A DNA stretch of 64,000 bases, taken from positions 1 to 64,000 of the forward strand of contig JAIOYV010000033.1 in the NCBI GenBank assembly GCA_021740905.1. The letters are read 5' to 3'. Every line of letters begins with the position of its first letter. The first letter of the stretch is position 1. Shown in pieces: positions 33,865 to 62,300 of this stretch. The notes below the pieces were generated by a model. It was not told the origin of the DNA. It saw nothing but the letters and a program-made list of their open reading frames with translations, and did not search any database. The DNA comes from Bacteroidales bacterium. GTDB taxonomy: Bacteria; Bacteroidota; Bacteroidia; Bacteroidales; M50B96. Both the position numbers and the translations under genes were made by a program.

Positions 33865-34010
33865 ATTGTCATTTGCTTCGCGTCAGTTGGCTTCGCCGTC
33901 ATTTGCTTCACGTCATTCGATAGTCATTCGCTTTGCGTCATTCATTGTCAAAGACAATCGAATGACAATTGAATGACAATTGAATGACAATTGAATGACA
34001 ACCAAATGAC
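33865..34010. repeat. 11-bp-period repeat array with inverted design, locus 1
   Basis: The left half (33865-33949) carries GTCATT-type units and the 18-mer GTCATTTGCTTCGCGTCA (33868-33885). Around a small hairpin (ATTGTC-AAA-GACAAT, 33944-33958) it switches to the opposite orientation: five exact 11-bp units GACAAYYRAAT starting at 33953, 33964, 33975, 33986 and 33997. It is related to the longer array at 47404-47698. Eleven is not a multiple of three, so it is not coding. Confidence 0.85.
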
Positions 34011-34011
34011 C

Positions 34012-34051
34012 AAAAAAAGAGGTTTCCAAAATGGAAGCCTCTTTTTTTTTT
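34012..34051 (+). terminator. Strong terminator after the ferritin-like gene
   Basis: Stem AGAGGTTTCC (34018-34027) / GGAAGCCTCT (34033-34042), one G-T pair, 5-nt loop, then ten T. An A run before it could make it bidirectional. The rest of the spacer up to 34530 is AT-rich with no convincing gene. Confidence 0.9.
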
Positions 34052-34530: not shown

Positions 34531-37500
34531 ATGAAAAAAATTATTCTATTCCTATTTGCATGTATAGCCTCATTGGGGCTATTTGCACAGTCGGCCAACC
34601 CAACAGTAATTACGTTGGATGGTCTTTCTAATTTGGGTCCTTGTGGAACACCTTTCTACGAGTCCGGAATTGAGATGAAAATCATACCTCAATCTGGGCA
34701 GGATCCTTGTGTGTCTGTGCCTCCAGGTTGTGATTATACAACTGGTCCCTTTGCCCTCAGTCTTTATCCTGGAAAACTCGAAGTTAACCTAAGTGGTTTT
34801 CTGCCTCCTCAACTTATTACCTCCATCGAGGTAGATATTGTGAACTGGGCTTCACCCGGATATGCGGTTGCATATATGTTAGATGCCGCGGGAGGGCAGG
34901 TAGCTTATGCTTCGAGTACTTTACCTGGCCTACCGGAAACTCTAACACTAATCAATCCTGTTCCGTCTCCCTTATCCTATCTTTATGTAGCAATGTGCGA
35001 AGGTCAGATATTGGAGATTCGAATTTACACAGGAGGTTCAACCCTGCCTCTTAGCATTACGGGTGTTGTGACCAATAGCACCCAAACCTCACCCTGTAAT
35101 GGGGGTATCGATATTACCGTTTCAGATGGAGTTACTCCCTATACCTATCTATGGTCGAATGGCCAAACTACCGAGGATTTAACTAATTTATGTGCGGGTC
35201 AATACTCTGTAACAACAACTGATGCAACTGGCTTTTGGATTGATTCTTTCTTCGATGTATTTCTTGAACTGCCTATGAGCGTTTCAGGAACGGTTACCCA
35301 TTCCACAACCCAAATTTCCTGCAATGGTGCAATTGACATCACAGTTGCAGGAGGAAATCCACCCTACACATATTCGTGGTCGAATGGTATGTCAAGTGAG
35401 GACATTTCAAACTTATGTCCGGGCACTTATTATGTAACCGCTTATGGAAGTCAGGGCGGATGGGTTGAATCTTTCTTTGATGTCTATGTGAATACAGGTC
35501 CGGTTACAAATGGCTTCAATATCACATTAAATGAAAATGGTTTCCCTGTTGCCGGTGGAGGTACCAACAATTATACGAGTGCTATCTATACCGATAACTA
35601 CAATGGTTGGTACAACTACACTATCACCAATTGGTGGAATATATGGTTTTATAATGGCTATGATCCCTATAAGTATAAAACCATCACAATCGAATTCGAT
35701 TTAGCAGTGTACAATAGTCTCTTACCTTCCTATCTAAATTTTGCAGTAAACTGGTCAACAGATGTGTGGTATAACCAGGGTATTGCCGGGACACCTCCAC
35801 TTCCGTCCTTAGTAGGAGCCAACGAGGCTGCCTATATTATGAGGCCAACCTTACAATTGTGGGATCAGGGAGTTTCTTCTGGTCATTACGAATATTGTTA
35901 TGTAATCCCAGATTATTGCCCCGGATGGGTATCCATCGATGTACAGGGGTATAATTTTGAAATTACAAATGGTGTAATCACCCATGAATGTATAAGTGGG
36001 AACCCTCCTCCAACAGGAAGATGTTGTTACACCGATCCAAATGGAAATATGGCTTGTGCCGATAATTACGAGTGCGAATGTGATCTCCTAAACGGTAGTT
36101 GGGATGCTACAAAAGATTGTACCAACGATCCTTGCTTACCAACTGGTGTAGGTACTTTCTGGATAGGTATGACAGGAAATCAGTATGCCGACCCGACCCT
36201 AACCGGCGGTACAAATAATTTCCCCGGTGGAATAAATGGATGGTACGATTATCCAAGTGGTTGGTGGAATATCTGGTTCAACAACTTACCCTATACTGTA
36301 AATGCCTATAAAGAGATTTATGTTAGTTTCGAAATCGAAAAATTAGCTCCAGGACTTCCTTTTTATGTAGAATTTGCAGTTAATTATTCGACTCCTACCT
36401 GGGATGCAAACCAATTGTTAGTTGCACCACCTATTCCTTCGAATATGGGGAATTATTCCGAGGCCGATGTAATTGTCAGGGATATGGTTTTAATGACCGA
36501 CAATGCTAGTGATCTGGGCACAATAAATTATTGTTTGGTAATACCCGATCATTGCCCTGGATGGGTCTCAATTGATGTTCAAGGATTTAATTTTAAGGTT
36601 ACAAATGGGGTCATTGACCATCAATGTTATTCTGGCATACCTGATTTAGGCCGATGCTGTTATACCGATGTAACCGGGGCAACAGCTTGCGCGGATAATT
36701 ATGAGTGCGAATGTGACTTATTAGGTGGTACCTGGGATGGCACAAAAGATTGCACAAACGATCCTTGTATCACAACCAACCTGGGTGCATGTTGTATTCC
36801 TGCAAGTGCCTTAGCCGGTTATACCTGTACCAATACAACAGAATCAAATTGTCTGGCTAATGGTGGAACCTTTATGGGCATAGGTACCTCTTGCAGTACA
36901 AATCCATGTCCGGTCGAAAATAATTTCCAGATCAAAATGCCTCCGACAGGAATCCCGAGCACTGACCCAACAGAAACCGGTGGTACGGATCCTTTCCCGG
37001 GTGGAATTAACGGATGGTTCGATTACCCAAGCGGCTGGTGGAATATCTGGTTCTACGATCATCCCTTCGATACGGCTAGGTACAAAGAAATCCATGTTAC
37101 CTTTACTGTATCACCTACTGTTCCTAACCTACCAACCTCACTTGATTTTGCTGTAAATTGGTCAACACCTGATTGGAGCCTGTCGCCCTTGGCATTATTT
37201 GGGCCTCCCGTACCACAAACTATGCCTGTTGGGACAAGTGAAGATTTATTTATTGAACGACCAATTATTTATGAAATCAACAACACAATACTATCTAGTA
37301 CATATCAAACAATTAGTTTATGTTTGTTTGTGACCCAATACAATCCCGAATGGGTATCGATAGATGTAATGGGATCGAACTTTACTATAACCAATGGCTA
37401 CATCTGGCACGCCTGCTTGCCCGGGCCACCTCCCAACGAAGTAAATGCTGGCCCCGATGTTGAAATCTGCGCTGGCGATTGTACTACACTTACAGCTACA

Positions 37501-40500
37501 GGTGGAGCTACCTATCAATGGAGCAATGGCTCTACCGGCTCTACCATATCAGTTTGTCCTTCGACAACTTCAACCTACAGGGTCACTGCTACCGATAATA
37601 ATGGTTGTTTTATGTTCGACCGGGTCACTGTGATAGTCAACCCAAGCCCATCTGTCAACTTAACATGTACAAATATTACTTGTTATGGAGATAACGACGG
37701 AAGTATTGTAGCATACGCTTATGGTGGAACTCCTCCTTATACATATTCCTGGTCGAATGGTATTAATGCAACCAGTCTGACAGGATTAGGCCCCGGAACG
37801 TATTCTGTAACCGTGACCGATTCGAATGGATGTACAGGAACAGCATCGTGTACCATAAGCGAGCCTCCCGAATTGAATGTTTACTATGTTAGCTTAGTCG
37901 GCTTGCTCTGTCATGGCGATCAGAATGGGGCCATCTCACTTGGTGTTACCGGAGGTGTTCCCCCCTATTCGTATGCCTGGTCGAATGGACAAACCGGACA
38001 AACTGCAACAGGTTTGGGCGCCGGCACATATTACTACACAGTAACCGATGCCAATGGTTGCCCTGCCACAGGATCTGCAACCATTCTTGATCCTCCAGCT
38101 ATTTCAATTTCAATTTCCAGTACCAATGTAAGTTGTTACGGTGGGAGCAATGGAAGTGCATCGGCCACTGTTTCGGGTGGAACCCCAGGCTATACCTATC
38201 AATGGTCGATGGGAGCCATGTCCCCTAACGTATCGGGGTTGCCAGCCGGCACCTATACGTTGACGGTTTATGATGCCAACCAGTGTATGGCCACGGCAAC
38301 GGTAACCATTACTCAGCCTCCTGCATTGACCATTGCAATGAATTGTGTGAACATTACCTGCCATGGTTATAATAATGGTTACATTTCAGTTTCAGTATCA
38401 GGTGGGACACCTGGGTACTCTTATGCCTGGTACCCCAATGTATCCACCGGGACAAATGCAATTAATTTAGGCCCTGGTTTGTATAAAGTGACAGTAACTG
38501 ATACGAAAGGATGCACTGCTACTGCACAATGTACAATTACAGAACCCCCTTTGCTTACAGTAGCTATGACAAAAACCAACGTTATCTGTAATGGTGATGC
38601 GAATGGTACAGCAACTGCAACACCTGGAGGTGGGACACCCCCATATTCATATAACTGGTCGACTGTACCTCCTTCAACAACACAAACTATATCGAATCTT
38701 GCTCCAGGGATATACACAGTTACAGTTACCGATGCAAAAGGATGCACCACTACTGGAAGTGTTACGATTACCCAACCACCTGCTCTGGGAGGAACAGTTA
38801 CGGTAATAAATGTTACCTGTCCAGGAGGAAACGATGGACAGGCAACTGCCAATATCGTTGGAGGAACTCCTCCATATACATACACCTGGGATGGTGTTGC
38901 CGGTGGGATGGTTAAAATGGGATTAAGTGCAGGATTGCATACCCTTGTGGTGAAAGATGCCAACAATTGCACCCATACTATTAATTTTGTTGTTACTGCT
39001 CCACCAGCAATATTTATTAATTCGACTATTGTTGATGTTGATTGCTTTGGAAATTCAACAGGATCGGCAACTGTCGTTGCTGGAGGTGGTACTGGCCCTT
39101 ATGTGTATGCCTGGGTAGGTATCGGGCCTGGAAACACAATTACCAACATGCCTGCTGGGATATACACGGTTGTGGTAACTGATTCGAAAGGTTGCACCGC
39201 CACCTTCAACATAACTATTATCGAGCCACCCGCCCTTGTATTAACTGAAACTCATGTTAACCCAAGTGCACCAGGTGCTTCCGATGGTTCAATCAATTTA
39301 ACAGTGAATGGAGGTACGGCACCTTCTGCTTATTCGTGGAGCAATGGAGCACTTACTCAAGACCTCAACAGTCTTTTGGCAGGAACATACTGTGTTACAG
39401 TTACTGATTCGAAAAATTGTGCGGCTACCTTATGTGTGACTCTTGTGGATCCGGCTTGTCCATCCACTAATCAGTTCTGGGTTGCCATGAGCTCTAACTG
39501 GGCTCCGATTCCATCGCTGACAGGTGGTACAAACTACTACCCAGGCGGCACAAACGGATGGTTCGAATATGCAAGCGAGTGGTGGAACATTTGGTTCTGC
39601 AATTTGCCATTCGATACCACAGCATATAAAACTATTCATGTTGAATTTAATGTTTCTGTGTATCAACCCGGATTACCATTCTATTTAAAATTTGCTTTGA
39701 ATTATACGAAGCCGGCCTGGGACATGGTGAATACTATCATGCCTCCATTGCCTTCGAATCCTACTGTGGTGGTGAACGAAAATCAATATATTTATAGAGA
39801 GGTCTTGGTAAATTCCAATTCCGCCTCTGCTCTCGGATTCCATAGTTATGATATCGTAATTCCGAACTATTGCCCGGGATGGGTATCGATTGATGTACAG
39901 GGATTCAATTACAAAATTGAAAATGGAATAATCAACCATGTATGCCTACAGGAACAATTAGGCCAATGCTGTTATTTCGAAAACTGTACAGTTGCCTGCG
40001 ATTATATCTCAGAAAGTGCTTGTCAGCAACTAAACGGACAATGGAATCCAAACCTGACCTGCAACGATTCTTGTGCATTACAAGAACTAAGTATTGTTGC
40101 AGTGGGTACTAATCCAATATGTAATGGTTCGTGCAATGGAACAATTTTGGCCAATGTAACTGGTGGGATTGCACCATATACAGTTACATGGCCAAGTAAC
40201 TCGGCTGTATTACTGGATGCACTTACTCCTCTTTCAATAGGAAACCTCTGCGCCGGAACATACATTCTTACAGTTACCGATGCCATTGGATGTACTTCCA
40301 CTGTAACCGTTGTTCTTGTTGATCCACCCCTTCTGTTGGCTAACATTACGGGGATCAACCCATCGAACCCAGGAGCAACAAATGGATCAGCTGACCTTAC
40401 TGTTAGCGGTGGTACGCTACCGTATAATTATCTGTGGAACAATGGTATGACAAACGAAGATTTAACCGGGCTTTCAGCCGGCACCTATTGTGTTACAGTT

Positions 40501-43500
40501 ACCGATGCCAATGGATGCATTGCTACAGCCTGTGTTACCTTGGTAGATCCGGTTTGTCCGTCAACCAACCAATTCTGGATAGCTATGAATTCAAATTATG
40601 GAATCGTCCCATCATTAAGCGGAGGAACCGACTATTATCCGGGGGGCATAAATGGATGGTTCGATTACCCGAGTGAATGGTGGAATATTTGGTTCTGCAA
40701 CCTACCATTCGATTCTACCGGCTATAAGACTATACATGTTGAGTTCAACGTTTCAGTTTACGAACCAGGTTTGCCGTTCTACTTGAAATTTGCTGTGAAC
40801 TATTCGACTCCGGCTTGGGATCTGGTCAATACAACGATGCCACCATTGCCCTTCAATCCTACTGTTGTGGCTAACGAAAATCAGTTTATCTATCGCGAAG
40901 TTCTTGTAAATAGCACAACTATTGGAGCTTCAGGATTCCACTCTTACGACTTCGTTATTCCCAATTATTGCCCAGGATGGGTATCTATCGATGTACAAGG
41001 TTTCAACTTCAAAATTACGAATGGAGTAATCAACCATGTATGCCTGCAAGAGCAATTAGGCCAATGCTGCCATTTCGAAAATTGCGACGTTACCTGTGAT
41101 TACATCACCGAAAGTGCTTGTTTACAGCTGGGAGGACAATGGAATCCGAACCTGACATGCAACGATAGCTGTGCATTAGAGGTATTAGACCTTGGATTGA
41201 CAGGAGTAAACCCAACATGCTCAGGCGCCTGCAATGGCTCAATCACTGCTTCGATAAATGGAGGCGTTGCCCCTTATCTCCTTTCATGGGTAAGTTCCTC
41301 GGTAAATCTGCCTTCCACATCGACAGCTTATACCATTACAAATTTATGCGCCGGTACCTATACCATTACGGTTACCGATGCCATTGGATGTACTTCTACG
41401 GCAACCATTACTTTGGTTGATCCACCACCTACAATGACCGTGTACCTATCTATGTTCAATCCTAATTGCTACGGGACAAGCACCGGAAAAGTAATTGTTA
41501 CCGTGTTTGGGGGTACTGCACCATTTACCTATTTATGGAACACAGGTTCTACTCTCCCCTTGCTGTTGAATATTCCTGCGGGTATCTATTCGGTTACCAT
41601 TACCGATGCAAATGGTTGTACAGCAACTGCAACTGCAACCCTTGTCGATCCGCCAATGCTTGTGGCTACCATAATAGGTACTAATCCTTCGGTAACTGGA
41701 GCAACCGATGGCTCGGCCGATCTTACCGTATCCGGCGGAACACCTGGATATACTTATATATGGAGCAACGGTGCCACAACTGAAGACCTTAGCGGTCTTG
41801 GTGCCGGCACCTATTGCGTAACTGTAACCGATAGCAAAGGCTGTGTGGCTACTGTATGCGTCACTCTTGTTGCCACGATATGTCCCACTACCAATCAATT
41901 CTGGATTGCGATGTACCCCAATTTGTATCCAAACCCCTTGCTCACAGGAGGTACCGATTATTACCCGGGTGGAACAAATGGTTGGTTCGAATACCCGAGT
42001 GAATGGTGGAATATCTGGTTCTGTAACCTGCCATTCGATCCAACATCCTACAAGCAAATTCATGTTGAATTTAACGTGTCACAGTATGAGCCTGGAGCAG
42101 CATTCTATCTCAAGTTTGCTGTAAATTATTCAACACCTACCTGGGATTTGAACAATTTGACCATGCCTCCTTTACCATCGAATTCAGCTGTTGTAGCGAA
42201 CGAAAGCCTATATATTTTCAGGGAAGTATTGCTCGAATCTTCTTCTTCTGTAAGTGCTTCAGGATTTCATTCTTATGATTTCGTAATCCCATTTTATTGC
42301 CCGGGATGGGTATCGATTGATGTACAGGGGTATAATTTCAAAATTGAAAATGGAGTCCTAAACCATGTTTGTTTGAATGAACAACTGGGTCAATGCTGTT
42401 ACTGGGATAGCTGCACGGTGGCATGCGATTATGTGTCCGAAGCCGACTGTAACCTTCTTGGTGGACAATGGAACCCCAACCTGACCTGTGCCGACAATTG
42501 CCCAATGCAGGTGCTCGGTGTCGATTTGGTGGGTAATAATCCACTTTGTAATGGAGATTGTAATGGAAGTATTTCAGCCTATATTTCGGGCGGTGTGCCT
42601 CCATACTCAATATCGATGGTAAGCCCATTGCCTGTTATCTATCCGGTAAGCTCTTTGCCATATGTATTCCAGAACCTCTGTGCCGGGAATTATACAATCG
42701 TTGTTACTGATTCTCTTGGTTGCAGTGTTACACAAACCGTTACTCTGGTCGACCCACCTGCTCTTGTCTTAGCCTTGGCAGGAACTGACCCATCAGCTCC
42801 CGGAGCACCGAATGGGTCTGTCGATCTTACCGTTTCCGGAGGCACACCACCTTACACATATCTATGGAATAATGGTGCTATTACTCAGAACTTATTTGGA
42901 GTAACTGCCGGAACATACTGTGTCACTGTTACCGATGCCAACGGATGTACCGATGATGATTGTATTACCCTGGTCGATCCGGTATGTGTCAATACCAACC
43001 AATTCTGGGTTGCCATGACTCCTAACCTGAATCTTGATCCATTGCTTACTGGTGGTACCGATTACTTCCCGGGTGGAATAAACGGATGGTTTGAGTACCC
43101 TCTGAATGACTGGTATAATATCTGGTTCTGTAATCTGCCATTCGATACTACTAAATACAAGCAAATCCATGTAGAATTCGACGTAACAAAACTAAATCCA
43201 ACTACTCCATTCTACTTCAAGTTTGCTGTAAATTACACTACGCCATTATGGGATATGAACAATCTGTACAGCCCACCATTACCCTCAAATCCAACAGTTC
43301 AGGCCAACGAAAATCTGTACCTGACACGGGAGGTTTTGGTTCAAACCGACAACTTCGTACAATTAGGTTTCCATTCCTACGACTTTATCATACCTGATTA
43401 TTGCCCAGGATGGGTATCGATTGATGTCCAAGGTTACAACTTTAAGGTTACCAATGGGGTCCTCAACCATGTATGTATGCAGGAACAATTAGGTCAGTGC

Positions 43501-46446
43501 TGTTATTTCGATAGTTGTGATGTGGCTTGCGCTTATGTAAGCGAAACTGAATGTCAGGCCTTAGGTGGTGCCTGGGATCCATATCTCACTTGTACAACTA
43601 CTTGCCAGTTGACACCCATGTCGATTTATACCTGGAAAACAGATGTAGATTGCTTCGGGAACAACACCGGTTTCGCCAATGTAACCGTATCGGGTGGTAT
43701 GTCGCCATATTCTTTCTTGTGGTCGAACGGTGCTACAACTGCTGCCATCAGCAACTTGTATGCAGGAATCTATACCGTATCGGTAACCGATGCCGCAGGT
43801 TGCTTGAAAACCGCAACGGCTATTATCACGCAGCCATTGCCAATATCAGTTGCCATTGCTACCACCGATGTAAGTTGCTATGGCTATGCCGATGGTTCTG
43901 CAATAGCCACTGTAACAGGAGGTATCCCGCCTTATATTTACGAATGGGATGGAATTCCGGGTGGTTCGTCCATTACCGGATTGCCAGCTGGAGTCCATAC
44001 ATTTAAAGTGACCGATGCCAATGGTTGTCCATATACCACTACATTCGATATACTCGAACCCGCTCAACTGGTTCTCAATTTAGTTGGAACGAATCCTTCG
44101 GTGGCTGGGGCTTCCGATGGTTCGGTCAACCTGAGTATAACAGGAGGAACATACCCGTACGCCTTCTTATGGAGCAATGGGGCCACCACAGCGGACATTT
44201 CAGGATTACCGGCAGGCACCTACTGCGTAACGGTTACTGATGCCAATGGATGTATAGAAACCGGCTGTGTTACCCTTACAGCTATTGCTTGCCCATCAAC
44301 CAATCAATTCTGGATTGGAATGACCGGCAACAACTATCCCGATCCTGCCATTACCGGTGGTACCGACTACTATCCGGGTGGTGTAAACGGATGGTTCGAC
44401 TATCCGAGTGGTTGGTGGAATATCTGGTTCTGTAACCTGCCTTATGATACCACCGCGTACAAGGAAATCCATGTTGAGTTCTATGTTTCGATGCTGACCC
44501 CTGGTCAACCATTCAGTTTAGAATTTGCCGTGAATTACACAACCCCGGCCTGGGACGAAAACAACCTTACCATGCCGCCATTGCCATCGAACAGCACTGT
44601 GGTTGCTAACGAAAGCCAGTATATCTTCCGCGAAGTCCTGCTCAACAGCACTACCGTTTCACCTACTGGATTCTACAGCTTTAATTTTGTAATCCCAGAC
44701 TATTGTCCCGGATGGGTTTCCATAGATGTACAAGGTTTCAATTTCAAGATTGAAGATGGGGTAATCAACCATGTTTGCTTGCAAGAGTCTCTTGGACAGT
44801 GCTGTTATGTTGAACAAGGGCAAGTAATGTGTGCGTATGTTACCGAAGCGGAATGTGACTCAATAAATGGTTACTGGGATGTCACTCAAAACTGCAATGA
44901 TATATGTCTGATCCCGGCACCTTGGGGCGATCCAATCAACACCGGCGATAACCACACTATTTTAGTGGCCGATACCGTACCGATCACAATTGACGGGATC
45001 CCGATCGGCATAGGCGATGAAATCTCTGTATTCTATGATGTCAATGGAACCCTTGTTGTGGGTGGCACACGTACCTGGAATGGAAGCTCGACCATTGTGG
45101 TTGCCTGGGGCGATGATCCCCAAACCACCACCATTAAGGATGGTTTTGCTACAGGTGAAGTATTTGCATGGAAGATTTGGGATGCCTCGGAAGCCAAGGA
45201 ATACGATGCCGTTGCAACCTACGATCCGCTCTTACCAAGTACCGATCAGTTTATGGTAAATGGTATCAGTTCGCTTGTCAAACTCGAAGCACGTCCATGC
45301 CAGACTATAATCTTTGGTGCTGGTTGGGACATGGTATCTACTTACATCAACCCGGACGACCCAGATTTGGATGTTGTATTGGCCGATATTGTTGCCAACA
45401 TCAGCATTATGAAAGATGAACTGGGTATGGCTTTCTGGCCCGCATGGGGTATTAACCTGATTGGCGATTGGACAGTTGGCGAAGGATACGCAATTAAAAT
45501 GGTCAACCCTGACACACTTGTAATTTGTGGGGACATGCTCAATCCAGCTACTACTGCGGTAGATATGAAAAATGGATGGGGCCTATTTGCATACCTGTGT
45601 CAAACTCCGCAAAATGTGGTTACGATGCTTAGTCCCATCGTGAACAACATCGTCATTGTGAAGGCTCCTGATGGAACAGTTTATTGGCCGATTTTTATGC
45701 TAAACACCATTGGCGACTTTATTCCCGGAAAAGGATATCAGGCCAAGATGAGCGCGCAAGCAAACTTGTACTATCAATGTGGTTCCGGTTCTACTAAATC
45801 AATAATAGATGAACCTTCTATCAAACATTTTGGTACAAGCAGGAGCACGGGCAACAATATGACCTTGGGCATCCCTCTATCCGCATGGGAAGAAAGTCCT
45901 GAAATTGGAGATGAAGTAGCTGTATTTACGCCTCAAGGAGAACTTGCCGGAAGTTCAGTATTTACCGGAAAGCACTTGGCAATTACGATTTGGGGCGATG
46001 ATGAGTACACCAAAACTTCTGAATCTCTCGAATTAGGTGGAACTTTCTCAATTCGATTGTGGCACCACAAAAGTGGCAAAGAAGAAGTAATAGACGTAGA
46101 AAGCTGGTCGGAAGGCAACAATCAATATACTGTTGATGGTATCAGCATTGCCGCAAAGGTAATGCTTACGGGAGTGGATGGATCGAGCTATGTACTGTAC
46201 CAGAACATTCCGAACCCATTTAAGGAAACCACCGAAATCAGGTTCTACCTGCCCAAAGCCTGCGAGCTTGAAATCGAAGTGTACAACTTATTGGGCGAAA
46301 AAGTAGCTGTGATTTGCCAGGGTGAATATGAAGCCGGCGAACACAGCGTGATCTTCAATTCCACCAAACTTAAATCGGGAAGCTACTTTTACAAATTGCG
46401 CACCCCCGATTTCACAGGCACTCATGCGATGAGCATAATTAGATAG
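34531..46446 (+). CDS. 3971-aa giant T9SS surface protein of SprB repeats and WWNIWF modules
   Basis: Signal peptide MKKIILFLFACIASLGLFAQ, then an N-terminal module (LDGLSNLGPCGTPFYE, about 30-165) shared with the paralog at 52553. The body has about 20 SprB repeats (NVSCYGGSNGSASATVSGG pattern ending YSVTVTDxxGC) and eight ~160-aa modules (35509-44778; NGWFDYPSxWWNIWF ... CPGWVSIDVQGFNF). Eight small Cys-rich motifs (GQCCYFENC ... C ... C) follow seven of the eight modules. One Ig-like piece (NAGPDVEICAGDCTTL) sits after module three. The C-terminus carries the complete shared cassette: EISVFYD/AWGDD (44925-45290), two GW/FWP-YWP/GYxxKM modules (45295-45780), EIGDEVAVF/IWGDDEYT (45830-46160) and a T9SS type A domain (IPNPFKETTEI ... 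SGSYFYKLR). Long SprB-rich chains are surface filaments or adhesins. Binding partner unknown. High repetitiveness makes misassembly possible. Confidence 0.93.
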   Translation: MKKIILFLFACIASLGLFAQSANPTVITLDGLSNLGPCGTPFYESGIEMKIIPQSGQDPCVSVPPGCDYTTGPFALSLYPGKLEVNLSGFLPPQLITSIEVDIVNWASPGYAVAYMLDAAGGQVAYASSTLPGLPETLTLINPVPSPLSYLYVAMCEGQILEIRIYTGGSTLPLSITGVVTNSTQTSPCNGGIDITVSDGVTPYTYLWSNGQTTEDLTNLCAGQYSVTTTDATGFWIDSFFDVFLELPMSVSGTVTHSTTQISCNGAIDITVAGGNPPYTYSWSNGMSSEDISNLCPGTYYVTAYGSQGGWVESFFDVYVNTGPVTNGFNITLNENGFPVAGGGTNNYTSAIYTDNYNGWYNYTITNWWNIWFYNGYDPYKYKTITIEFDLAVYNSLLPSYLNFAVNWSTDVWYNQGIAGTPPLPSLVGANEAAYIMRPTLQLWDQGVSSGHYEYCYVIPDYCPGWVSIDVQGYNFEITNGVITHECISGNPPPTGRCCYTDPNGNMACADNYECECDLLNGSWDATKDCTNDPCLPTGVGTFWIGMTGNQYADPTLTGGTNNFPGGINGWYDYPSGWWNIWFNNLPYTVNAYKEIYVSFEIEKLAPGLPFYVEFAVNYSTPTWDANQLLVAPPIPSNMGNYSEADVIVRDMVLMTDNASDLGTINYCLVIPDHCPGWVSIDVQGFNFKVTNGVIDHQCYSGIPDLGRCCYTDVTGATACADNYECECDLLGGTWDGTKDCTNDPCITTNLGACCIPASALAGYTCTNTTESNCLANGGTFMGIGTSCSTNPCPVENNFQIKMPPTGIPSTDPTETGGTDPFPGGINGWFDYPSGWWNIWFYDHPFDTARYKEIHVTFTVSPTVPNLPTSLDFAVNWSTPDWSLSPLALFGPPVPQTMPVGTSEDLFIERPIIYEINNTILSSTYQTISLCLFVTQYNPEWVSIDVMGSNFTITNGYIWHACLPGPPPNEVNAGPDVEICAGDCTTLTATGGATYQWSNGSTGSTISVCPSTTSTYRVTATDNNGCFMFDRVTVIVNPSPSVNLTCTNITCYGDNDGSIVAYAYGGTPPYTYSWSNGINATSLTGLGPGTYSVTVTDSNGCTGTASCTISEPPELNVYYVSLVGLLCHGDQNGAISLGVTGGVPPYSYAWSNGQTGQTATGLGAGTYYYTVTDANGCPATGSATILDPPAISISISSTNVSCYGGSNGSASATVSGGTPGYTYQWSMGAMSPNVSGLPAGTYTLTVYDANQCMATATVTITQPPALTIAMNCVNITCHGYNNGYISVSVSGGTPGYSYAWYPNVSTGTNAINLGPGLYKVTVTDTKGCTATAQCTITEPPLLTVAMTKTNVICNGDANGTATATPGGGTPPYSYNWSTVPPSTTQTISNLAPGIYTVTVTDAKGCTTTGSVTITQPPALGGTVTVINVTCPGGNDGQATANIVGGTPPYTYTWDGVAGGMVKMGLSAGLHTLVVKDANNCTHTINFVVTAPPAIFINSTIVDVDCFGNSTGSATVVAGGGTGPYVYAWVGIGPGNTITNMPAGIYTVVVTDSKGCTATFNITIIEPPALVLTETHVNPSAPGASDGSINLTVNGGTAPSAYSWSNGALTQDLNSLLAGTYCVTVTDSKNCAATLCVTLVDPACPSTNQFWVAMSSNWAPIPSLTGGTNYYPGGTNGWFEYASEWWNIWFCNLPFDTTAYKTIHVEFNVSVYQPGLPFYLKFALNYTKPAWDMVNTIMPPLPSNPTVVVNENQYIYREVLVNSNSASALGFHSYDIVIPNYCPGWVSIDVQGFNYKIENGIINHVCLQEQLGQCCYFENCTVACDYISESACQQLNGQWNPNLTCNDSCALQELSIVAVGTNPICNGSCNGTILANVTGGIAPYTVTWPSNSAVLLDALTPLSIGNLCAGTYILTVTDAIGCTSTVTVVLVDPPLLLANITGINPSNPGATNGSADLTVSGGTLPYNYLWNNGMTNEDLTGLSAGTYCVTVTDANGCIATACVTLVDPVCPSTNQFWIAMNSNYGIVPSLSGGTDYYPGGINGWFDYPSEWWNIWFCNLPFDSTGYKTIHVEFNVSVYEPGLPFYLKFAVNYSTPAWDLVNTTMPPLPFNPTVVANENQFIYREVLVNSTTIGASGFHSYDFVIPNYCPGWVSIDVQGFNFKITNGVINHVCLQEQLGQCCHFENCDVTCDYITESACLQLGGQWNPNLTCNDSCALEVLDLGLTGVNPTCSGACNGSITASINGGVAPYLLSWVSSSVNLPSTSTAYTITNLCAGTYTITVTDAIGCTSTATITLVDPPPTMTVYLSMFNPNCYGTSTGKVIVTVFGGTAPFTYLWNTGSTLPLLLNIPAGIYSVTITDANGCTATATATLVDPPMLVATIIGTNPSVTGATDGSADLTVSGGTPGYTYIWSNGATTEDLSGLGAGTYCVTVTDSKGCVATVCVTLVATICPTTNQFWIAMYPNLYPNPLLTGGTDYYPGGTNGWFEYPSEWWNIWFCNLPFDPTSYKQIHVEFNVSQYEPGAAFYLKFAVNYSTPTWDLNNLTMPPLPSNSAVVANESLYIFREVLLESSSSVSASGFHSYDFVIPFYCPGWVSIDVQGYNFKIENGVLNHVCLNEQLGQCCYWDSCTVACDYVSEADCNLLGGQWNPNLTCADNCPMQVLGVDLVGNNPLCNGDCNGSISAYISGGVPPYSISMVSPLPVIYPVSSLPYVFQNLCAGNYTIVVTDSLGCSVTQTVTLVDPPALVLALAGTDPSAPGAPNGSVDLTVSGGTPPYTYLWNNGAITQNLFGVTAGTYCVTVTDANGCTDDDCITLVDPVCVNTNQFWVAMTPNLNLDPLLTGGTDYFPGGINGWFEYPLNDWYNIWFCNLPFDTTKYKQIHVEFDVTKLNPTTPFYFKFAVNYTTPLWDMNNLYSPPLPSNPTVQANENLYLTREVLVQTDNFVQLGFHSYDFIIPDYCPGWVSIDVQGYNFKVTNGVLNHVCMQEQLGQCCYFDSCDVACAYVSETECQALGGAWDPYLTCTTTCQLTPMSIYTWKTDVDCFGNNTGFANVTVSGGMSPYSFLWSNGATTAAISNLYAGIYTVSVTDAAGCLKTATAIITQPLPISVAIATTDVSCYGYADGSAIATVTGGIPPYIYEWDGIPGGSSITGLPAGVHTFKVTDANGCPYTTTFDILEPAQLVLNLVGTNPSVAGASDGSVNLSITGGTYPYAFLWSNGATTADISGLPAGTYCVTVTDANGCIETGCVTLTAIACPSTNQFWIGMTGNNYPDPAITGGTDYYPGGVNGWFDYPSGWWNIWFCNLPYDTTAYKEIHVEFYVSMLTPGQPFSLEFAVNYTTPAWDENNLTMPPLPSNSTVVANESQYIFREVLLNSTTVSPTGFYSFNFVIPDYCPGWVSIDVQGFNFKIEDGVINHVCLQESLGQCCYVEQGQVMCAYVTEAECDSINGYWDVTQNCNDICLIPAPWGDPINTGDNHTILVADTVPITIDGIPIGIGDEISVFYDVNGTLVVGGTRTWNGSSTIVVAWGDDPQTTTIKDGFATGEVFAWKIWDASEAKEYDAVATYDPLLPSTDQFMVNGISSLVKLEARPCQTIIFGAGWDMVSTYINPDDPDLDVVLADIVANISIMKDELGMAFWPAWGINLIGDWTVGEGYAIKMVNPDTLVICGDMLNPATTAVDMKNGWGLFAYLCQTPQNVVTMLSPIVNNIVIVKAPDGTVYWPIFMLNTIGDFIPGKGYQAKMSAQANLYYQCGSGSTKSIIDEPSIKHFGTSRSTGNNMTLGIPLSAWEESPEIGDEVAVFTPQGELAGSSVFTGKHLAITIWGDDEYTKTSESLELGGTFSIRLWHHKSGKEEVIDVESWSEGNNQYTVDGISIAAKVMLTGVDGSSYVLYQNIPNPFKETTEIRFYLPKACELEIEVYNLLGEKVAVICQGEYEAGEHSVIFNSTKLKSGSYFYKLRTPDFTGTHAMSIIR
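35509..44778 (+). repeat. Eight copies of a ~160-aa protein module (WWNIWF / CPGWVSIDVQG)
   Basis: Copies by position: 35509-35991, 36157-36627, 36925-37416, 39475-39945, 40573-41043, 41899-42372, 43003-43476 and 44308-44778. All are in the frame of the giant gene. Landmarks per copy: NQFWIAM at the start, GGTDYYPGGINGWF, WWNIWFCNLPFD, YKxIHVEFxVS, LPFYLKFAVNYSTPxWD, PPLPSN, REVLVNS, CPGWVSIDVQGFNF and INHVC at the end. Copies 4-8 are the most alike. A ninth, diverged copy is in the minus-strand paralog (53714-54187). I know no named family for it. Confidence 0.9.
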
Positions 46447-46846: not shown

Positions 46847-47407
46847 ATGAATACATTTTTTAGGATATTGTTTATTGGGGTATTGGCCCTTGTTTTAGTT
46901 CCGAATATTTCCAATGCACAGAATAAAAGGGAAAAAGAAAAAGAATCCAGGACAGCAGTTACAACTGATGATAGGAAAATAGATCAAGATGGCGCGGTTG
47001 TCGAGGGTTACGTTTTTATCAAAGCAGTTGAGCAGGATTTTGGAAAGTTTGACATTCGGATAAATGCCGGGATCGATAAAGAGGGAGGCGAACGAAGAAT
47101 AGTCTCCAATGGCAAAGAAGAAGAGCGGTTTAATCGTGTCCTTGAAACGAGGTCGCTTGTAAATCTATTGAGTTTCATGCAGAGGATGGGATATCACATC
47201 GAAACGAGCTATGCGCTTGCAAACAAGGACGAAATAGTACATTATTACCTGATGAACAACAACAGTAAGTCGGGAATGAATGCCGACGAAATGCAAACAA
47301 GCGACCAAATGATGGAGCAAAGACGAGCCAATCAAAACCGGCCTAAACTCAGCCCCGAAGAAATTGAAAAGCGGAAACGTGCACGTCAAGAAGCACAAGA
47401 TAGATAG
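46847..47407 (+). CDS. Small exported protein of unknown function
   Basis: 186 aa. Signal peptide MNTFFRILFIGVLALVLVPN with cleavage after ISNAQ. The mature part begins with a Lys/Glu-rich stretch (NKREKEKESRTA). It is followed by a compact mixed domain (DGAVVEGYVFIKAVEQDFGK ... RSLVNLLSFMQRMGYHIETS) and ends in a highly charged tail (LSPEEIEKRKRARQEAQDR) that should be helical. No lipobox, membrane segment or T9SS domain, so a periplasmic location is likely. I do not recognise a family. It is a single-gene unit with its own probable promoter and is followed directly by the large 11-bp repeat array. Any link with the giant protein upstream is only by position. Confidence 0.8.
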   Translation: MNTFFRILFIGVLALVLVPNISNAQNKREKEKESRTAVTTDDRKIDQDGAVVEGYVFIKAVEQDFGKFDIRINAGIDKEGGERRIVSNGKEEERFNRVLETRSLVNLLSFMQRMGYHIETSYALANKDEIVHYYLMNNNSKSGMNADEMQTSDQMMEQRRANQNRPKLSPEEIEKRKRARQEAQDR

Positions 47408-47698
47408 TCATTTAGCTTCGCGTCATTCTTTGTCATTCGCTTTGCGTCATTCAATAGTCATTTGCTTCGCGTCATTCACTACTAGTGACTACCTAATGAC
47501 TATTGAATGACTACCTAATGACTATTGAATGACTACCTAATGACTATCGAATGACTATCGAATGACTACCTAATGACTATCGAATGACTATCGAATGACT
47601 ACCTAATGATTATCGAATGACTATCGAATGACTATTGAATGACTACCTAATGACTATCGAATGACTATCGAATGACGCGAAGCAAATGACTATTGAAA
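47404..47698. repeat. 11-bp-period repeat array bounded by 26-bp inverted repeats, locus 2
   Basis: From 47487 to 47673 there are 17 consecutive 11-bp units GACTAYYKAAT in perfect register (two variants, GACTACCTAAT and GACTATYGAAT; one unit has GATTATCGAAT). The array is bounded by a perfect 26-bp inverted repeat: left arm 47452-47477, right arm 47670-47695, both containing TTTGCTTCGCGTCATTC or its complement. The part left of 47477 carries reverse-oriented units. The centre has a small hairpin (CACT-ACT-AGTG, 47477-47487). It begins at the stop of the 186-aa gene and ends 50 nt before the stop of recJ (convergent). Confidence 0.95.
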
Positions 47699-47748
47699 GA
47701 CCATTGAACCACAGCCAATTGATAAACATATTCATCAATAGTCTACGA

Positions 47749-49467
47749 TCAATACTCCATCTTAATATCCCTAACCATTAATTGAAGATTTACTTTTCCC
47801 CTGAACTCATTTTCTATCAAAGTATAGCAAACATGAAAAGGAATGCGTTGATGGATGATCTCGTAATGCTCTGATTGATTGAAAGCGATGGCCGGGATTA
47901 CCAAGTTGGAATTATCGCCCTGCATCAAATCGAGCTTCAAGTGCTCCTCGTTTTTTCCTACCATTTTTCCGGTGCCCCAATCAATTACATTTTGGGTAAC
48001 AAAAACCGGTGACATATTATCCGGCCCAAATGGTGCAAATTGTTTCAGGATGCGGTAGAATTTTGGGGTTATGTCAGATAACTTGATCACACTATCGACT
48101 TCGATCTGAGGGATCATTTGTTCAGCAGAAATTGTCCTTGCCACATGTTCCTCAAACCGACGTGTAAATTCTGGCACGTTTTCAATTTTCATGGTCAACC
48201 CGGCAGCATACGTATGGCCTCCAAAATTTTCGAGCAAGTCGGAACAAGCTTCTACCGCCTGGTATAGATCGTATCCTTCAACCGTTCGCGCCGAACCGGT
48301 CGCAAAACCGTTCGATTCGGTCATGATAACGGTGGGGCGATAATAGGTCTCTATAAGCCGGGATGCCACAATGCCGATGACTCCTTTATGCCAGTCGGCA
48401 CGATAAAGAACTGTGCTTTTTTTGTTCTTCCCTGCCTCGTCACGTTCTATCATTTCAAGGGCTTCCTGGGTAATTCCCCTGTCGAGGTCTTTTCGGGCAT
48501 CGTTGAAATTATTCACTTCGATAATGACCTCCGCGGCAATTTCTTTCGACCCCGAAATGAGCAGGTCGACTGATTTTCGACCCGACTCCATTCGCCCGGC
48601 AGCATTGATCCTGGGGCCAATTTTGAAAACGATGTCACTAATGGTAATTTCCTTGCCTTCGAGATTGGAAACCTGAATGGTGGCTTTTAACCCATCGCTC
48701 GGGTTGCCATTTAATTGCTGAAGACCAAAATGAGCCAATACCCTGTTTTCCCCTGTAATGGGTACAATGTCGGAAGCTATGCTCACACAAACTAAATCGA
48801 GGTGACGTTCCAATTCATAAAAAGGGATATTATATTCTTGGGCATACGCTTGTATCAACTTAAACCCAACCCCACAGCCCGAAAGGTGCTTAAACGGGTA
48901 ATCACAATCCAGTCGCTTTGGGTCCAATACAGCCACTGCATCGGGAATTGTATCGCCTGGCGTATGGTGATCGCACACAATAAAGTCGACTCCCTTTCGC
49001 TTGGCATAAGCAATTTTCTCTACGGCCTTTATCCCACAATCGAGGGAAATAATCAACCCAATATTATTCGAAATAGCATATTCAATTCCTTGAAAAGAAA
49101 TACCATAGCCCTGTGAATATCGGTCGGGGATATAGTAATCGAGATGCTGGTACCTGTCTTTTAAAAAGGCATAAACCAATGCTACAGATGTAGTACCGTC
49201 AACATCGTAATCGCCATAGATCAATATTTTTTCATTTCTATCGAGGGCCTTTTTTATCCGCTTCACTGCCTTGTCCATATCTTTCATCAGAAAGGGGTCG
49301 TGCAGATCGGTTAACTCAGGTCGAAAAAACGACTTGGCTTCAGCATAAGTCCTTATCCCACGCTGAACAAGCAAGTTGGCAAGGATATGGTCGATATTGA
49401 GTGAACGTGCAAGATGGTCGACATGATGTTCGTCGCCTTCGGGCTTTATTTTCCAAACTTTTTCCAT
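47749..49467 (-). CDS. recJ: Single-stranded-DNA-specific 5'-3' exonuclease RecJ
   Basis: 572 aa, the usual RecJ length. DHH phosphoesterase core with metal ligands in YGDYDVDG (Asp86, Asp88), ISLDCGI and VCDHHTPGD (Asp166-His167-His168), then LSGCGVGFKL. The DHHA1 nucleic-acid-binding domain follows, including GPRINAAGRMESG and the GGHTYAAGLT signature, then a C-terminal OB-fold (about 440-572). RecJ is the Mn2+/Mg2+-dependent cytoplasmic nuclease that degrades 5'-ended single strands in RecF-pathway recombination, mismatch repair and base-excision repair. It is convergent with the 186-aa gene, with the 11-bp repeat array between them. It is separated by 208 bp from the upstream aconitase-family gene, so it is probably its own unit. 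Nothing is missing from the catalytic motifs. Confidence 0.96.
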   Translation of the reverse strand: MEKVWKIKPEGDEHHVDHLARSLNIDHILANLLVQRGIRTYAEAKSFFRPELTDLHDPFLMKDMDKAVKRIKKALDRNEKILIYGDYDVDGTTSVALVYAFLKDRYQHLDYYIPDRYSQGYGISFQGIEYAISNNIGLIISLDCGIKAVEKIAYAKRKGVDFIVCDHHTPGDTIPDAVAVLDPKRLDCDYPFKHLSGCGVGFKLIQAYAQEYNIPFYELERHLDLVCVSIASDIVPITGENRVLAHFGLQQLNGNPSDGLKATIQVSNLEGKEITISDIVFKIGPRINAAGRMESGRKSVDLLISGSKEIAAEVIIEVNNFNDARKDLDRGITQEALEMIERDEAGKNKKSTVLYRADWHKGVIGIVASRLIETYYRPTVIMTESNGFATGSARTVEGYDLYQAVEACSDLLENFGGHTYAAGLTMKIENVPEFTRRFEEHVARTISAEQMIPQIEVDSVIKLSDITPKFYRILKQFAPFGPDNMSPVFVTQNVIDWGTGKMVGKNEEHLKLDLMQGDNSNLVIPAIAFNQSEHYEIIHQRIPFHVCYTLIENEFRGKVNLQLMVRDIKMEY

Positions 49468-62175: not shown

Positions 62176-62246
62176 ATCAATTTGAAATTTAGCGCAAAAT
62201 AAAGCTAATTCTTTGAATACACCAAGATGAATATGAAAGTAGTTTG

Positions 62247-62300
62247 TGAGTTGAGAAGTTGAAATAGTTATGAGTTGAAAAGTTCTGAGTTGAGAAGTTG
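62247..62300. repeat. Three imperfect 15-bp direct repeats
   Basis: TGAGTTGAGAAGTTG at 62247-62261 and 62286-62300, with TGAGTTGAAAAGTTC at 62271-62285 between them, in the non-coding spacer upstream of the DUF1573 gene. Confidence 0.6.

Follow-up and report, generated by a model that had tools for sequence, protein, structure and literature searches.

The window, by which we mean the whole 64,000-nucleotide stretch of Bacteroidales DNA that was analysed, carries an element made of short repeated words at 47404-47698, in a 341-bp intergenic region between two convergent genes: a plus-strand gene for a 186-aa protein with no Pfam match at E 0.01 (46847-47407) and a minus-strand recJ gene with RecJ_OB, DHH and DHHA1 domains (47749-49467). 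The element, delimited from TRF, inverted-repeat, BLAST and box counts and assigned to neither strand, is built on the word GTCATT. Six GTCATT boxes on the plus strand, at 47407, 47422, 47432, 47446, 47457 and 47471, form its left half (47407-47476) together with hairpin and short spacers; these are the reverse-oriented units that had been noted to the left of the array. Seventeen boxes of the opposite orientation, AATGAC, form its right half (47495-47690, minus strand; first box at 47495, last at 47685), and the opposing halves enclose an unstranded centre at 47477-47494. The right half advances mainly in 11-bp steps, with a last step of 14 bp and an additional box near 47605 that has decayed to AATGAT beside the seventeen exact ones. 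TRF reports an 11-bp unit in 17.4 copies with 83% matches (47486-47676), and a triple AATGAC pattern at 11-bp steps matches the window 15 times as against 0 matches in 100 dinucleotide shuffles, which bears out the array of seventeen 11-bp units of the original prediction.

Inverted arms of 32 nt, 97% complementary, lie at 47446-47477 (plus strand) and 47670-47701 (minus strand). Perfect arms had been predicted and are real, but the length given for them, 26 bp, was too short, as their perfect part spans 28 nt (47450-47477 with 47670-47697). Mini-hairpin spacers read GC-TTC-GC at 47415-47421 and 47464-47470 and GC-TTT-GC at 47439-47445, all on the plus strand, and another lies on the minus strand at 47677-47683, where the plus strand is GCGAAGC, a sequence described as a very stable DNA mini-hairpin (PMC4686876). 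The 14-bp hairpin modules belong to the element as much as the 11-bp units do. At its left end the element lies directly at a stop codon, as had been claimed: the G of the TAG stop of the 186-aa gene (47405-47407) is the first base of the first box. A predicted TAG stop overlaps a box in this manner (TAG-TCATT) at four loci, namely window positions 47405-47407 and loci L184, L204 and L212, which suggests that the element supplies or abuts the stop of its flanking gene.

A second member of the family, at 33868-34010 and likewise without an assigned strand, consists of five GTCATT boxes followed by five AATGAC boxes and starts 7 nt past the stop codon of a gene for a rubrerythrin-like protein. 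Beyond it, at about 34021-34047, a custom script detected a distinct hairpin with a T tail where another terminator scan listed none, and this gene end is one of three element-bearing ends with a terminator of their own. Between both elements, at 34531-46446, the window encodes a predicted 3971-aa protein with many repeated domains and, by eye, a signal peptide and a C-terminal sorting-like domain. A further short tandem repeat, with 15- and 24-bp periods (AGTTGAAAAGTTATG), occurs at 62234-62299.

The original prediction had staked itself on the existence of other copies, and these were found by BLAST and by pattern matches both in the genome to which the window belongs (6.54 Mb, 160 contigs; hereafter the source genome) and in others. 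In the source genome, BLAST returned 91 matches to the element; the 14-bp module pattern GTCATTNGCTTYGCGTCATT, with up to 2 mismatches, matched 54 times forward and 70 times in reverse (124 matches), the 11-bp array pattern at the same tolerance matched 89 and 143 times (232 matches), and the reversed-pattern controls gave 0 matches for the module and 0 for the array. Arrays of four or more boxes occur in at least 48 intergenic regions of the source genome and in 0 predicted genes, the regional statistics being drawn from the window and 47 stretches among the matches listed.

These arrays follow a simple grammar, in which GTCATT boxes stand on the left and AATGAC boxes on the right, and some arrays are single-sided. 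Neighbouring boxes in the source genome are both GTCATT in 279 steps and both AATGAC in 256, whereas GTCATT is followed by AATGAC in 34 and AATGAC by GTCATT in 3, all of which involve lone outlying boxes. Among 102 loci of other genomes, which are not independent in that about ten are copies of one Tobar18m element, 63 clusters face inwards, 0 face outwards, 9 include a stray box and 38 are one-sided; no array of reversed polarity was seen in the source-genome regions or at these 102 loci. Step lengths in the source genome are mainly 11 bp (274), 14 bp (90), 10 bp (41), 15 bp (25), 16 bp (19) and 18 bp (18), and a period of 7 accounts for 166 of 1256 steps in other genomes, with some loci counted twice. 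The 276 short (5-nt) spacers mostly fit M-R-R-T-D, with GTCATT preceded by C in 1 of these units and by T, A or G in the other 275; CGTC occurs where a hairpin module precedes a GTCATT box. Elements of the source genome end in varying modules and have neither common ends nor a fixed length.

The box itself is far more constrained than its surroundings. In 157 triples whose outer boxes are exact and 22 bp apart, the middle box, which is free to vary, is exact in 145 and differs at 1.5% of sites, compared with 35% of sites in the neighbouring spacers, a constraint biased somewhat by the choice of loci with exact boxes. Longer spacers are predominantly hairpins: with scoring confined to 3-nt loops, 143 of 155 spacers of 7-12 nt have a stem of at least 2 bp round such a loop, against a mean of 22.6 and a maximum of 35 after shuffling. 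The stems are 2-5 bp long, mostly 2-4 bp, and they co-vary, the outer pair of the 8-nt spacer class (n = 90) being G-C in 69 spacers and A-T in 13, with one side changed in 4 and G-G in 4. In other genomes, hairpins make up 443 of 503 spacers of 7-16 nt and use 29 stem sequences. Read on the AATGAC strand, 113 of 154 hairpins in the source genome and 363 of 443 elsewhere are of the form C(GNA)G, the loop type of very stable DNA mini-hairpins; according to PMC4686876, the DNA mini-hairpin GCGAAGC melts at 78 C, and hairpins of this kind arise from GNA loops.

The spacers also bear on how the arrays grow. Two spacers from the same half-array are identical in 21% of comparisons; the figure falls to 5.8% for spacers from different loci and to 4.5% (n = 289) for spacers from opposite halves of a locus. 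Higher-order tandem duplications of 24-36 bp are visible. Because sharing within a half-array lies far above that between loci, arrays grow by local duplication, in agreement with the expansion by slippage that had been proposed, and because the halves of one locus share spacers at about the level of unrelated loci, the two halves grow independently. The same figures led us to reject a mirror duplication of one half into the other. Selection for matched long arms at each locus was rejected as well, in that own halves pair no better than swapped ones: at 18 loci whose halves each reach 60 nt or more, inner duplex energies were -37.9 for own and -40.6 for swapped halves, and outer energies -40.1 and -45.3. 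The halves pair via their words, not via matched spacers.

A period close to one helical turn had raised the prospect of a phased protein-binding array, which did not survive examination of other copies. Among the 64 half-arrays that have five boxes or more, 18 consist solely of 10/11-bp steps or their doubles and 46 contain other steps, and phase coherence at 10.5 bp in these 46 was 0.295, compared with 0.331 expected at random; helical phasing of bound sites was thus rejected as a general property. Chained ATG...TGA minigenes, which are visible in the sequence (11 and 14 are both 2 modulo 3), were also discarded, as the chains are broken by 10-, 15-, 16- and 18-bp steps. The predicted hairpin fared better, with folds computed for 47404-47698 of -87.4 kcal/mol as RNA (z -11.3) and of z -8.8 and -9.0 as DNA, one for each strand. 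Two-sided elements of the source genome have predicted z < -3 in 26 of 33 cases (mean -5.2), as opposed to 2 (L188 and L185) of the one-sided or nearly one-sided clusters (14 of 47; mean -0.45). A hairpin alone leaves the lack of reverse polarity unexplained.

Turnover of the elements can be followed between Calditrichaceae MAG_33 and Deltaproteobacteria PRO9 records, compared over 15 stretch pairs with aligned blocks 85-97% identical. An element lies at the same PRO9 place for 16 of 17 MAG_33 clusters (at least three boxes), with direction kept in 16 of 16, an occupancy that is overestimated because the stretches were chosen for carrying elements; at the seventeenth site (L261:4838-4979), one genome has eight boxes and the other none. 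The contents of these sites have changed almost throughout. Box strings are identical at 1 of the 16 orthologous sites, 20 spacers are common in order from 91 and 116, and mean element identity is 0.56 at the 16 sites as against 0.54 in 78 non-orthologous pairs of the same class, yet spacers are shared at 24% in orthologous sites and 5% in non-orthologous pairs. With identity near background and spacer sharing well above it, most old sites have been refilled in place almost to saturation. One orthologous element (L261:3879-4179 and L282:5571-5884) has been held at 0.91 identity while 15 others turned over, which speaks against fast turnover there. The PRO9 contigs, labelled 'Deltaproteobacteria', share about 90-93% identity with Calditrichaceae MAG_33 over long blocks (L087/L105 and L054/L145), one of them 92.7% identical to a Calditrichaceae contig over 4 kb, and the label is therefore probably wrong.

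BIMEs occur in operons, and one of the present elements sits between sucC and sucD (L087; genes named by NCBIfam). Elements lie a median of 32 nt from flanking stops (n = 53) and 86 nt from flanking starts (n = 43). Flanking genes at the 48 source-genome regions are convergent in 13, tandem in 27 and divergent in 8, with 20, 68 and 20 in the background, and gene-end enrichment by orientation is not significant among these regions (p 0.29 and 1.0); the position between convergent genes to which the original prediction had drawn attention is correct for 47404-47698 but does not extend to a rule. Intrinsic terminators were called after 3 of the 50 gene ends that bear an element and after 19 of the 104 that do not (p 0.0495), the split being 1 of 24 against 10 of 40 at convergent ends (p 0.042) and 2 of 26 against 9 of 64 at tandem ends (p 0.50), statistics that are marginal and rest on home-made gene and terminator calls. 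Since these statistics are marginal and orientation is not enriched, a role at 3' ends is a reading of the data rather than a result.

At the recJ site, one of three same-family genomes (G001) retains the gene pair, its recJ converging with a homologue of the 186-aa gene (38% over 126 aa). Between the two genes lie about 75 bp, judged by eye, in which there are no boxes but a long terminator hairpin flanked by A- and T-runs; in the other two relatives the sequence there is different. Terminator scans found no T-run hairpin within or right after 47404-47698. A terminator-like hairpin on the recJ (minus) strand at 47343-47326 lies inside the 186-aa gene, beyond the left end of the element.

The elements are also distributed far beyond the source genome. 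The exact module occurs in at least 102 stretches, from records titled Mucilaginibacter, Spirosoma, Chitinophaga, Prolixibacteraceae, Calditrichaceae, Deltaproteobacteria, Nitrospinia, Candidatus Amesbacteria, Melioribacter, Gemmatimonadota and others, though not every such label need be right. A lone module match proves little, as about 4 chance matches are expected in the collection at equal base frequencies; most of the exact-module stretches inspected carry further boxes nearby. With one mismatch allowed, the module is present in 18 of 393 genomes of the order (the source genome included; 6 with a single match) and in 9 of 395 genomes of the phylum (6 with a single match), where a reversed control gave one match in one genome. 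It was not found in the three other genomes of the same family, one of them 60% complete, so that the search of relatives proposed at the outset returned patchy carriers in distant phyla and none in these three genomes. Searches of a viral collection with exact patterns gave 2 and 4 contigs, and BLAST with the low-complexity filter on, a weak test, gave no match among plasmids; carriage by phages or plasmids was rejected on these figures.

Some carriers have arrangements of their own. The Bacteroidales genome Tobar18m-G2 (G053) contains a homogeneous dispersed element of about 300-450 bp, found in L057, L061, L078, L083, L096, L124, L134, L143, L149, L151 and L167, with GTCATT words, hairpin modules, a variable 10-bp AATGAC array and the left end TTCATATG. 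Its copies share their ends, unlike elements of the source genome, and because TTCATATG resembles an opposite-strand start codon at several sites (by eye), the words may here ride on a mobile upstream-region element. In Mucilaginibacter, L307:3048-13070 has five elements in the gaps of a run of genes all about 2.4 kb in size; two of the elements have a common centre and differing outer words.

Mucilaginibacter also offers a site at which other words are found. When 100 genomes were searched, 28 returned the region past the stop of one orthologous gene. Two of these contain several GTCATT words there and a third a single box, others contain different words with their reverse complements (for example, GATTTCGG, GATGTGCGG and AGTCCGAA), and the remainder show a simple hairpin or no recognisable feature. 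A word score, defined as two direct copies plus a reverse complement, exceeded shuffles in 15 of 28 downstream regions, compared with 3 of 28 control regions in coding sequence and 3 of 27 far downstream, and a folding z < -3 was predicted for 11 downstream, 0 coding and 0 far-downstream regions. The GTCATT sites themselves perform poorly here: the word score is 0 at L313 and L314, and the folding z values of L313, L314 and L315 are -0.7, 0.3 and -0.2. Doublets of GATGTGC are present in 62 of the 100 genomes and sometimes, among the matches listed, form a plus-strand and then a minus-strand run (for example, G797:C8). Loci outside the source genome yielded 40 different inverted arrays built on other words, although some are simply long hairpins; a strand-composition rule for these arrays, with the left arm rich in G and T, was rejected (23 for, 14 against and 3 ties of 40). 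In the source-genome stretches, 92 intergenic regions lack GTCATT arrays; 7 of these pass a word test, and about three of the 7 look by eye like true arrays of other words (L211:1879-2196, L214:1361-1574 and L218:4376-4798, with TGGAGTATTGG, AGTATTTAGTATCAAG and ATATCCAATATC). Perhaps, then, GTCATT arrays are one example of a general undescribed class of 'inverted word arrays', in which runs of a short word are followed by runs of its reverse complement. Different species would use different words at one gene end with the architecture unchanged, and such 3'-end hairpins would evolve through exchange of their words instead of ordinary substitution. As the evidence comes from one gene and from loci chosen for other reasons, we offer this as a bold and rather doubtful reading only.

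For the GTCATT elements themselves, the reading towards which we lean, giving it slightly less than an even chance of being right, is that of a dispersed, modular intergenic hairpin element, tolerant of slippage and REP-like in role, which is kept as an RNA hairpin at 3' ends or between cistrons. Its grammar, the constraint on the box, the co-varying hairpin stems and the turnover are results, whereas what the element does and how it spreads are inferred. Each half lengthens and shortens separately via tandem duplication of one to a few modules. As any box could pair with any opposite box, a transcript or single-stranded DNA would form a hairpin in almost any register, and the structure would thereby survive slippage. 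Such a 'slip-tolerant zipper' may be what is retained at 3'-end and intercistronic positions; at some sites it would replace an ordinary intrinsic terminator, perhaps also between recJ and its convergent neighbour. New sites are assumed to be seeded by copying from existing elements. Several observations weigh against this reading: flanking genes are not enriched for gene ends by orientation, most one-sided clusters and the GTCATT stretches at the Mucilaginibacter site fold poorly, the polarity needs more than a hairpin to explain it, one orthologous element is conserved, the terminator statistics are marginal, the second window element has a terminator of its own, and a terminator-like site lies just beyond the first.

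We think it rather unlikely, but worth serious consideration, that the elements are instead selfish REP-like repeats without a host role, moved in trans by a Y1 (HUH) transposase or some other enzyme with single-stranded hairpins as its substrate, for which GTCATT would be the recognition word and the C(GNA)G hairpins the structure that is read. Hairpins of a DNA-stable type with co-varying stems would suit such a repeat, as would the patchy distribution across phyla. The source genome has five Y1 matches. Within the order, Y1 occurs in 17 of the 18 genomes that carry the element and in 252 of the 375 that do not (p 0.017), a difference for which genome size is a likely confounder and which does not demonstrate mobilisation, and GTAG-tagged REPs are thought to be mobilised by Y1-type enzymes (PMC3733652). 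However, none of the five Y1 genes has a GTCATT array beside it, with at most one GTCATT and two AATGAC per locus, and Y1/RAYT flanking was rejected for this reason; each Y1 gene adjoins other palindromic repeats (by eye; one record ends at the contig end), one element-positive genome (G147, positive by a single match) has no Y1 match, and the elements lack common ends and a fixed length. The palindromes beside the Y1 genes (L172-L176, on C52, C11, C65, C141 and C4; for example, ACCACAATTTATTGTGGT at L172) are candidate RAYT-REP pairs in their own right.

The contrast between a conserved box and free spacers, and the recurrence of the same box in distant phyla, could also reflect sites for a DNA- or RNA-binding protein that is indifferent to helical face, with the hairpins incidental. 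This we consider improbable, given the unphased spacing, the co-varying hairpin stems, which box binding does not require, and the presence of other words at the same place in one orthologous site. Another possibility is that words were added from a template, as at telomeres, to the two 3' ends of a break that was then joined. This would yield inward-facing, independent halves and one-sided arrays with no selection on folding, and it accords with the strict polarity, with halves that lack mirror symmetry, with the one-sided arrays and with a fixed site that holds different words in different species. We nevertheless regard it as very unlikely, as no enzyme or template is known, the expected strand-composition bias is weak (23 more and 14 less G/T-rich of 40), and the 24% of spacers common to orthologous elements point to piecemeal change. 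That the array is an assembly artefact, which the original prediction had itself named as a danger, or an isolated minisatellite might be feared in a draft genome of 160 contigs, but it is scarcely credible when the same grammar recurs at 48 regions of that genome and in independent assemblies, including those of named Mucilaginibacter and Spirosoma strains.

If the reading of a slippage-tolerant hairpin element is true, bacterial gene ends could be built of register-free repeats in which structure is inherited and sequence is not, and homology searches and Rfam-type models would miss such elements. The same box and DNA-stable mini-hairpin in distant phyla also raise the question of what recognises or spreads them, which carriers among named strains (Mucilaginibacter and Spirosoma) make testable.

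A literature search limited to leading results among open-licence papers found no description of GTCATT/AATGAC arrays in titles or abstracts, and Rfam returned 0 gathering-score matches in the window and in the source-genome stretches L177, L184, L205, L216 and L220. The CGTC REPs are described as intergenic palindromes, mostly head-to-head dimers, in five phyla including Bacteroidetes and Chlorobi, with no transposase gene alongside and with one 8-9-bp stem, a 4-5-nt loop and a CCA-like tail (PMC3733652; Di Nocera, De Gregorio and Rocco, 2013). As far as that excerpted description extends, the present elements are similar in being intergenic and found in Bacteroidetes, in two-sided arrays that face inwards apart from stray boxes, and in the absence of a GTCATT array beside any of the five Y1 transposase genes, the one class considered; the CGTC-AT at the start of the CGTC REP stem also resembles the CGTCATT that follows hairpin modules here (PMC3733652). 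They differ in having many boxes, 3-nt loops, stemless 10/11-bp arrays and no fixed ends. The tag of a CGTC REP (CGTC, or TGTC/CCTC, unpaired and at one end) has no constant counterpart, as TGTC occurs but C precedes the box in 1 of 276 units, and instead of an 8-9-bp stem with a 4-5-nt loop there are stems of 2-5 bp, with 3-nt loops alone scored. With GTAG REPs, as outlined in the same source, the elements share a dispersed, intergenic arrangement in inverted pairs, one of them intercistronic (sucC/sucD) (PMC3733652), but they have no GTAG tag, and the Y1 genes of the source genome are flanked by other repeats, unlike in the GTAG REP/RAYT system.

Heptanucleotide arrays such as TAACTGA are reported to be patchy in Bacteroidetes, Cyanobacteria and Beggiatoaceae, with 169 sets of direct repeats and a single indirect one in the genome chiefly studied, mostly just upstream of start codons (PMC4679880; MacGregor, 2015). 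They resemble the present arrays as short tandem words, head to tail, intergenic and patchy, mixed with other heptamers and changing in length by whole units; they differ as direct repeats of another word, for which the excerpted text describes neither inward-facing halves nor hairpin spacers (PMC4679880). BrickBuilt of Porphyromonas gingivalis, a MITE with a 23-nt minisatellite and predicted long stem-loops, likewise places tandem units with predicted hairpins within a dispersed intergenic element of Bacteroidota (PMC4596501). In the excerpted account, it has a leader, a tail, IS5-family-like terminal inverted repeats and tetranucleotide duplications at filled sites (PMC4596501), whereas GTCATT elements of the source genome have no fixed ends or terminal inverted repeats. 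At the one empty site of the window element, the sequence has diverged too far for a target to be recognised. Intrinsic terminators share with the elements a hairpin past stop codons, and one stands at the equivalent site in the relative G001, but 47404-47698 is long, modular and symmetric, without a T-run hairpin within or right after it. The elements thus lack features by which the REP, MITE and terminator families considered here are defined, although they resemble REP-type repeats and arrays of short words.
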